From Natrinema marinum (GTDB lineage: Archaea > Halobacteriota > Halobacteria > Halobacteriales > Natrialbaceae), in assembly GCF_024296685.1 (NCBI RefSeq), contig NZ_CP100763.1, forward strand, positions 2,604,001-2,668,000: DNA of 64,000 nt. The letters run 5' to 3'. Below are positions 26,364-28,271 of the stretch, one piece after another (positions within the stretch are counted from its first letter, which is position 1; the number at the start of each line of letters is the position of its first letter). A program made the position numbers and the translations under genes. Below the pieces are notes generated by a model that was not told the DNA's origin, searched no databases, and worked only from the letters and a program-made list of their open reading frames with translations.

Positions 26364-28271
26364 CTAGGTGTCGACCGCGAACGACTCGTCGTAGGCCGCG
26401 GTGTGAACTCCGGTGAATTCGAAGCGCGCGCCGCCGCTCTCGCTCTCGCCCACGTCGACCTCCCATCCGTGGGCCTGTGCGATCTCGAGGACGATGTTCA
26501 GCCCCAGTCCCGTCCCGGTTTCGTCAGTCGTCCACCCCGGCTCGAGCACGTGATCGCGTTCGCCGGGCGGAATGCCGGGGCCGTCGTCGGCGACGTAGAA
26601 GCCGTCCTCGGTGACGCCGAGAGAGACGGTCACCGTCTCTCCGCCGTGTTCGACGGCGTCCCGACGAGCCTGCGAGTCAGGGCTCGTCGAACCGTGTTCG
26701 ACGGCGTTGCGAAACAGGTTCTCGAACAGGTTTCGAATCCGCGTCGAGTCGGCATAGAAGAGGCCGGCGGAGTCGACGCGGAGCGACGCGCCCGCGGTCG
26801 CGACGTTGGCCCAGCACTCCTCGACGACGGCGTCGAACTCGAGAGCCTCGACCGCGTCGACCTCGTATCCGCTCCGAACCATCGTCAGCACGTCGTCGAT
26901 GATCCCCGCCATCCGATCGAGCGTGTGCTCGAGTTCGTCGGCCGGTTCGGCGTCGCTCCCCTCGAGTAAGGCGTAGGCCACGTTGAGCGGGTTCCGAAGG
27001 TCGTGTGCCAGAATGCTCGCGAACTCGTCCAGTCGTTCGTTCTGGCGCTCGAGTTCGCGTTCGTGGGCGAGCCGGTTGAGCGCGATTTCGGCGTTCAGCG
27101 ACAGGATCGAGGCGAGTTCGTCGTCCGACCGATCGAACGCGCCGACCGCCGGATCGACGATGCTGATGACGCCGTGGTCGCCCATCGGAAGGTAGAGCGC
27201 AGAGCGCGCGTCCCCGCGGTCGTGACCGTCGTCGAGCTCGCGAACGTCGTCGTACCGGAGGAGGTCGCCGCTCTCGTAGGCGCGACTCACCGGGCTCTCG
27301 CCGTCGATCCGGTACTCCGGTCGGCCGCCCATCGTCGCCTGGGCCCGCTCGGTGACGGCGACGGGGCACAGCCGCGGTTCGTCGTCGACGAGTCGAACGA
27401 CGTTGCTCCGGTAGTCGAGAATCGTGTTGGCCGCGTCGGCGACGAGCCCTGCGATCTCCTCGCGGTCGTCCGCTCGCATCAACCGGCGCGTCGCCTCGTG
27501 GAGCGCCCGAAGCTGGCGCTCGTACTCCTTTCGGGCTGTCACGTCACGGAAGACGCCCGCGATCAGCCGTCGGTCCTGTCGGTCGAACACCTGGGCGTTG
27601 ATTTCGACCGGGACCCGATCGCCGCCGCTGGTTTCGACGTAGATATCCGCCCCGTCAGGGAACTGGCTCAGAATCGCCTGATCGGTCGCGATGTGTGTCT
27701 CAAAGAGCCCCCGATAGCGGTCTCCCTCTCCCGACGGATGGAGCATCGACTGGCGCTTCCCGACGAGTTCGTCCGGATCGTAGCCCAACAGGTCCGTGAC
27801 GTGTTCGTTCGCCTCGACAATCTCGCCGGTCGTCGCGTCCGCGACGACGACCGCGTCCGGAACCGCCTCGAGGATCGTCTGGTACTTCGTCCGCAGCGCC
27901 TGCTGCTCGCTGATGTCCCGAACCGCCGCCATGAACTCGAGCCCGCACTCGCTTTGGATCGGACTCAGACTGATGTCGATGGGGACGAGCGAGCCGTCCT
28001 TGCAGCGCCCCGAGAGATCGAGGTTCGCGCCCATCGGCCGCGTCTCGGGATCCTCGATGTACGCGTCTCGCTGGGCGACGTGGGCGCTCCGAGACGGTTT
28101 CGGGATGAGGATCTCGATCGGCTCGCCGACGAGTTCGTCCGGGCGGTAACCGAACAGATCCGTGACGCGCGCGTTCGCGTAGGTGATTCGGCCGTCGCCA
28201 TCGACGAGGACGATCGCGTCGGGCGACGCTTCGCAGATCGCTTCGTATCGGTGTCGGCGTTGATCAGGCAT
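26364..28271 (-). CDS. PAS-PAS-GAF sensor histidine kinase
   Basis: The 635-residue cytoplasmic kinase has two PAS domains (about 5-120 with SPDAIVLVDGDGRITYANAR, and 125-250 with VPDAVVVADATTGEIVEANE), a GAF-like domain (~265-415), HisKA with the His in ILAHDLRNPLNVAYALL and HATPase_c with DDGPGIPPGE and GTGLGLNIV. No membrane segment or receiver is present. I chose the ATG at 28271 (MPDQRRHRYEAICEA) over one 16 codons upstream because the PAS begins at once. The N-box region carries a 16-residue insertion listed separately. No partner regulator is adjacent. Confidence 0.88.
   Translation of the reverse strand: MPDQRRHRYEAICEASPDAIVLVDGDGRITYANARVTDLFGYRPDELVGEPIEILIPKPSRSAHVAQRDAYIEDPETRPMGANLDLSGRCKDGSLVPIDISLSPIQSECGLEFMAAVRDISEQQALRTKYQTILEAVPDAVVVADATTGEIVEANEHVTDLLGYDPDELVGKRQSMLHPSGEGDRYRGLFETHIATDQAILSQFPDGADIYVETSGGDRVPVEINAQVFDRQDRRLIAGVFRDVTARKEYERQLRALHEATRRLMRADDREEIAGLVADAANTILDYRSNVVRLVDDEPRLCPVAVTERAQATMGGRPEYRIDGESPVSRAYESGDLLRYDDVRELDDGHDRGDARSALYLPMGDHGVISIVDPAVGAFDRSDDELASILSLNAEIALNRLAHERELERQNERLDEFASILAHDLRNPLNVAYALLEGSDAEPADELEHTLDRMAGIIDDVLTMVRSGYEVDAVEALEFDAVVEECWANVATAGASLRVDSAGLFYADSTRIRNLFENLFRNAVEHGSTSPDSQARRDAVEHGGETVTVSLGVTEDGFYVADDGPGIPPGERDHVLEPGWTTDETGTGLGLNIVLEIAQAHGWEVDVGESESGGARFEFTGVHTAAYDESFAVDT
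26644..26707. repeat. 48-nt in-frame palindromic insertion with 16-bp direct repeats
   Basis: A perfect 16-bp direct repeat (CCGTGTTCGACGGCGT) lies at 26644-26659 and 26692-26707, offset exactly 48 nt. Between them CGACGAGCC (26662-26670) and GGCTCGTCG (26681-26689) form a 9-bp inverted repeat with a 10-nt loop. The unit adds 16 codons to the kinase, making EHG-STSPDSQARRDAVEHG-G where the two other long kinases in the window read straight through (NAVDHGG, NAIEHGG). It behaves like a small mobile palindrome tolerated in coding sequence. Confidence 0.75.

Follow-up and report, generated by a model that had tools for sequence, protein, structure and literature searches.

A two-hairpin palindromic DNA unit in a haloarchaeal sensor kinase and, in frame, in unrelated genes

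The 64-kb stretch of DNA analysed here (the window) encodes on its minus strand, at 26,364–28,271, a sensor histidine kinase of ∼635 amino acids with the domain order PAS-PAS-GAF-HisKA-HATPase_c, in which 16 additional residues directly follow the NA of the N box. This locus raises the question of whether the insert is peculiar to one kinase or is a copy of an element found in many genes. A reading of the sequence alone had described an in-frame 48-nt palindromic insertion lacking at the same place in the two other long kinases of the window, and both statements are borne out, since those kinases (at ∼43.2 and ∼45.3 kb, loci L011 and L013) read NAVDHGG and NAIEHGG without the insert. The 16-bp direct repeat with a spacing of 48 on which that reading was based is likewise present, at 26,644–26,659 and 26,692–26,707, and it makes the placement of the unit ambiguous by up to 16 nt.

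Using the boundary rule derived from the empty sites described below, the inserted 48-nt unit (VEHGSTSPDSQARRDA) is assigned to positions 26,655–26,702 on the minus strand, where all of the features that follow also lie. Its left flank is the target-like AACGCC that encodes N-A of the N box (26,703–26,708). Hairpin 1 consists of the 5′ arm GTCGAAC (26,696–26,702, extendable by C26703), the loop ACG (26,693–26,695) and the 3′ arm GTTCGAC (26,686–26,692, extendable by G26685). A GAGC spacer (26,682–26,685), conserved in coding and noncoding copies, forms the foot of hairpin 2, which comprises the 5′ arm CCTGAC (26,676–26,681), the loop TCGCAGGCTC (26,666–26,675) and the 3′ arm GTCGGG (26,660–26,665) with one G-T wobble. 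The right flank ACGCC (26,655–26,659) is the same as the left flank and is followed by the displaced end of the host N box, GTCGAACACGG (26,644–26,654), which encodes VEHG and now lies in a loop.

The same layout recurs throughout the family: ACGC, hairpin 1 (7–8 bp with a 3-nt loop), AGC, hairpin 2 (6 bp with the 10-nt loop TCGCARGCTC) and ACGC. In 155 of 162 copies the unit itself is 44 nt long with a flank of 4 nt, and 48 nt are added per copy; hairpin 1 encodes VEHGST and hairpin 2 then encodes PxSxAxx. GAGC is kept in 143 of 162 copies of the coding subfamily and in 33 of 35 of a related subfamily with an 11-nt loop. The two ends of the unit are separate hairpins of differing sequence, and the terminal inverted repeats that join the ends of a MITE are absent. 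A search of the 64-kb window with a covariance model trained on 58 copies other than the one in the window recovers the latter at 80.5 bits (E=2.5e-18), which excludes chance for this copy. The 9-bp inverted repeat that the sequence-only reading had described as enclosed by the direct repeat does exist (26,662–26,670 and 26,681–26,689) but is not one of the palindromes conserved in the family. The overlapping central stem dominates the single-sequence fold of the unit, yet shows no covariation across relatives, and this repeat was rejected as the key structure.

Pairing within the two hairpins was compared with that of synonymous-codon-shuffled sequences for 197 distinct units. The arms of hairpin 1 pair at 94.4% of positions, compared with 81.5% after shuffling, and those of hairpin 2 at 88.0%, compared with 77.7%. 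The synonymous third positions of V and S, and likewise those of E and G, form the two pairs of hairpin 1 that vary most, and these positions in opposite arms co-vary (V3–S3: GC 99, CG 67; E3–G3: GC 94, AT 87; z∼20 and ∼16 relative to the same shuffle). An alignment of 58 units is 90.7% paired (77.8% shuffled) and has a covariation score of 0.350, compared with 0.03–0.09 when the partners are slid. These statistics count distinct sequences rather than independent insertion events. Because synonymous positions in opposing arms co-vary, the palindrome, as DNA or RNA, is judged from these sequence comparisons to be maintained independently of the protein. The possibility that hairpin 1 is a duplicate of the host N box was ruled out: the left and right AVEHG codons in kinases resemble each other no more than shuffled pairs do, and since codon choice in the two VEHG copies is uncorrelated, hairpin 1 comes with the element.

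Of 194 Halobacteria genomes searched with the core DNA pattern, 47 contain copies, against a background of about nine control matches, and the covariance model (E≤1e-7) finds the unit in 66 of 145 genomes, representing 28 of 58 genera. The window's own genome has five copies, four in kinases and one in the gene for cobalt-precorrin-7 methyltransferase CbiE; the N-box loops of several kinases carry the unit in this genome and in many relatives, frequently as tandem arrays. An exact-pattern scan of 84,980 species yielded 70 loci, every one with a haloarchaeal title. Searches of viral and phage collections for the unit gave no matches, and an Rfam search with six loci gave nothing relevant.

The earlier reading had proposed a search for the unit in other genes and between genes, and held that a peptide confined to orthologs of this one kinase would indicate an ordinary lineage insertion. 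That refutation failed, as the unit is carried by at least nine unrelated gene families in addition to several kinase paralogs; the search finds it in frame in many genes and also finds 11-nt-loop relatives that are mostly noncoding. According to Pfam and NCBIfam identification, the in-frame copies occur in glutamate–tRNA ligase (GltX), CbiE, CbiZ, two sites of an MBL hydrolase (Lactamase_B plus rhodanese), an OCD-family gene, a VLRF1-like release factor, DUF7089, response regulators, the KEOPS protein Cgi121 and a Rieske protein. Copies within CbiE and within an MBL-fold gene are also found in annotated plasmid records. The GltX unit (L192) lies just ahead of the catalytic domain, and the Cgi121 unit occupies positions 741–794 of its locus (L345).

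Clean empty orthologs are available for four of the non-kinase sites, namely GltX, MBL sites 1 and 2, and CbiE. At all four, filled and empty orthologs differ by exactly 48 nt, located after (N)ACGCC. For example, the empty GltX site reads AAC GCC GAG GAG, while in the filled site 48 nt ending in GAC GCC separate AAC GCC from GAG GAG. Within the window's genus, seven genomes carry the unit at the CbiE site, and a tree of 28 genomes that includes six of these seven requires five changes between the filled and empty states, at least three of which are forced by well-supported branches. As far as a sequence tree can indicate, this pattern agrees with recurrent gain or loss at a single exact position, with the direction indistinguishable.

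Coding status was judged by codon-position GC. Of the 154 copies with a 10-nt loop that were scored, 136 have sense frame 0 on both sides and a further 14 on one side only, making 150 in all, and in the loci retrieved this subfamily is almost never intergenic; the genome-wide intergenic count is based on model searches. The encoded peptide of the sense frame is net acidic, and the other five frames are basic and/or contain stops. The frame bias can therefore be explained in part by selection, but selection leaves the scarcity of intergenic 10-nt-loop copies unexplained. The openness of frame 0 is partly by construction, and gathering loci by sequence or peptide patterns introduces some selection bias into the frame counts. 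Units of the 11-nt-loop subfamily (TCGCTNCGCTC) have the same layout; of 34 that were scored, 18 are flanked on both sides by noncoding sequence, and several lie in AT-rich or noncoding surroundings. In a 12-nt-loop subfamily (SEPSVADAPEDA), 16 of 17 copies are coding.

Several further arrangements were seen around these units. In genome G305, several 11-nt-loop units (L323, L324 and L356) are clustered in apparently noncoding DNA. The 12-nt-loop unit, with the loop TCGCTGACGCTC and the peptide given above for that subfamily, adjoins the main unit in kinases as well as in one gene of the OCD family (L095, L110, L136, L145 and L173). Unrelated coding palindromes, GAAAATTCCC-AA-GGGGAATTTTC and AGACGGC-AAA-GCCGTCT, lie next to the unit in a histidine kinase N-box loop (L343, 727–846) and in L169, and are read in frame as RSRDGKAVSRDDENSQGEFSNHS. 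Other types of hairpin 2 are present at the kinase site (L035, L042, L058, L059 and L061), one being TTCAGAACC-TGAC-GGTTCTGAA (STSRSEPDGSED) and another CGGAC/GTCCG (STSNRTESGD). The alternative hairpin TTCAGAACC was considered as a dispersed family in its own right and rejected, with a single weak match among 194 genomes.

In the predicted structure of the kinase domain (mean pLDDT 88.4), the insert forms a low-confidence loop between the N-box helix (118–136) and the next strand (157–163), and Foldseek matches of the predicted domain are ordinary kinases. The insert is thus within the ATP-binding domain, as had been claimed, but it follows the N-box helix rather than lying in the ATP lid, which the earlier reading had proposed to model with and without it. 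The first residues of the element, VEHG, complete the N box, and the VEHG of the host is displaced into the loop.

We consider it probable that this insert belongs to a dispersed family of non-autonomous palindromic elements of haloarchaea, which are copied in at ACGC-like targets. Mobility is deduced from presence and absence patterns in sequenced genomes, no movement having been observed. An element of ∼44 nt, with two hairpins joined by GAGC, would insert beside an (N)ACGCC-like site and add 48 nt. We infer that the element may spread through folded single strands of DNA that are copied in at ACGC-like targets, with either an unidentified trans factor or template switching during replication as the driving agent, and that copies in genes would survive only in the single stop-free acidic frame and in a tolerant surface loop. 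Kinases may be a hot spot because the AACGCC of their N box would supply the target and the VEHG of the element would replace the N-box end displaced by insertion. The fuller proposal, of a mobile coding palindrome that lacks its own transposase, depends on its hairpins for copy-in at ACGC-like targets and rebuilds the displaced kinase motif, is put forward only tentatively. The ACGC flank common to the copies may belong to the element itself or may have arisen by duplication of the target. Against this view, presence and absence could partly reflect loss or gene conversion, and blind insertion would predict intergenic 10-nt-loop copies unless there were strong bias or removal.

The main rival dispenses with an enzyme. 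Microhomology-driven template switching at ACGCC-rich sequence, with palindromes kept perfect by mutation (template switching or quasipalindrome correction), would account for stems that vary freely yet stay complementary and for short flanks in common, and it gains from the results of a search for Y1_Tnp (PF01797) in ten carrier genomes, which found this transposase in three but not in the other seven, including the complete genome of the window. We regard it as rather unlikely, as mutation alone does not explain why the coding and noncoding subfamilies have a conserved loop and foot in common (TCGC...GCTC, GAGC), and boundaries are precise at distant sites. That an IS200/IS605-type Y1 HUH transposase acts on the hairpins, as for REP or PATE elements, seems less probable still: the two hairpins, the conserved foot tetranucleotide GAGC and the short target-like flank would suit it, and Haloquadratum has PATEs as small as 52 bp (PMC3119063), but the transposase was not found in most of the genomes searched. 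Mobilization of the IS200/RAYT type is accordingly disfavoured rather than excluded, since the search covered PF01797 only and does not rule out other enzymes or past activity.

The remaining alternatives place the protein or the gene first. A functional acidic linker, repeatedly recruited and selected as a peptide, is consistent with a single reading frame and a net acidic product, but the covarying positions include purely synonymous ones (V3–S3 and E3–G3), the residues of hairpin 2 are free to vary provided that the DNA pairs, noncoding relatives exist and the structure prediction shows the insert as a low-confidence loop; we think this explanation very improbable. We give hardly any credence to an ordinary lineage-specific insertion of one kinase family, spread by gene duplication and conversion. 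It is true that the N-box loops of kinases hold most of the copies, often arrayed in tandem, but the same DNA unit is present in unrelated families, with empty orthologs at four sites, and the related noncoding copies and those in GltX, CbiE, MBL and Cgi121 contradict such an origin.

Rickettsia and Wolbachia offer the best-known examples of palindromic sequences inserted in frame into many genes. Literature searches, including searches with peptide and DNA strings, found no description of the present family, nor of such a family in archaea. The haloarchaeal family is small and sharply bounded, extends across many haloarchaeal families and enters genes for a tRNA synthetase, KEOPS and sensor kinases. 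Its synonymous covariation is a clean signal that structure rather than peptide is conserved, and the filled and empty sites in close relatives make the mode of spread testable in tractable haloarchaea. REP and BIME sequences are small hairpins, also found outside genes, with a conserved foot tetranucleotide and are associated with RAYT transposases. The haloarchaeal unit conserves GAGC at a hairpin foot, which differs from the bacterial GTAG/GGAG. Copies of its coding subfamily lie almost exclusively within genes and are read in frame, and no RAYT (Y1) gene was found in the window's genome or in six others.

Short, transposase-free palindromic elements (PATEs and SMRs) are known in Haloquadratum walsbyi; in the accessible portion of the published account, PATEs with termini only measure 52 bp and are linked to IS605-type transposons, and no in-frame coding insertions are described (PMC3119063). 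Unlike these, the present unit is read in frame and has hairpins flush with its ends, and Y1_Tnp was not found in most carriers searched. PARCELs are palindromic DNA repeats that encode protein in tandem arrays, but they specify amphipathic domains of 25 residues in other taxa (PMC2996958), whereas the haloarchaeal unit has 16 residues and makes single insertions at defined sites. In the coding palindromes of Nematomorpha mitochondria, the arms of inverted repeats encode conserved host protein (PMC6649704). Secondary structure and protein are both retained in coding DNA there, as here, but the haloarchaeal palindrome is a dispersed, inserted unit. All of these are related ideas, and none combines all of the features of the haloarchaeal unit. 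Rickettsia (RPE) and Wolbachia palindromic elements occur both outside genes and in frame within unrelated, pre-existing ORFs (PMC3767692, PMC10969869). The likeness to Rickettsia elements that the sequence-only reading had suggested holds for behaviour, as the haloarchaeal unit also lies in frame in unrelated genes that have empty orthologs and, by codon-position GC, has relatives outside genes (the 11-nt-loop subfamily). It does not extend to length (44 nt plus a 4-nt flank versus ∼100–150 bp), architecture (two separate hairpins adjoining ACGCC) or taxon, and no sequence comparison was made. By this analogy of behaviour, the haloarchaeal unit looks like an archaeal counterpart of the Rickettsia palindromic elements.
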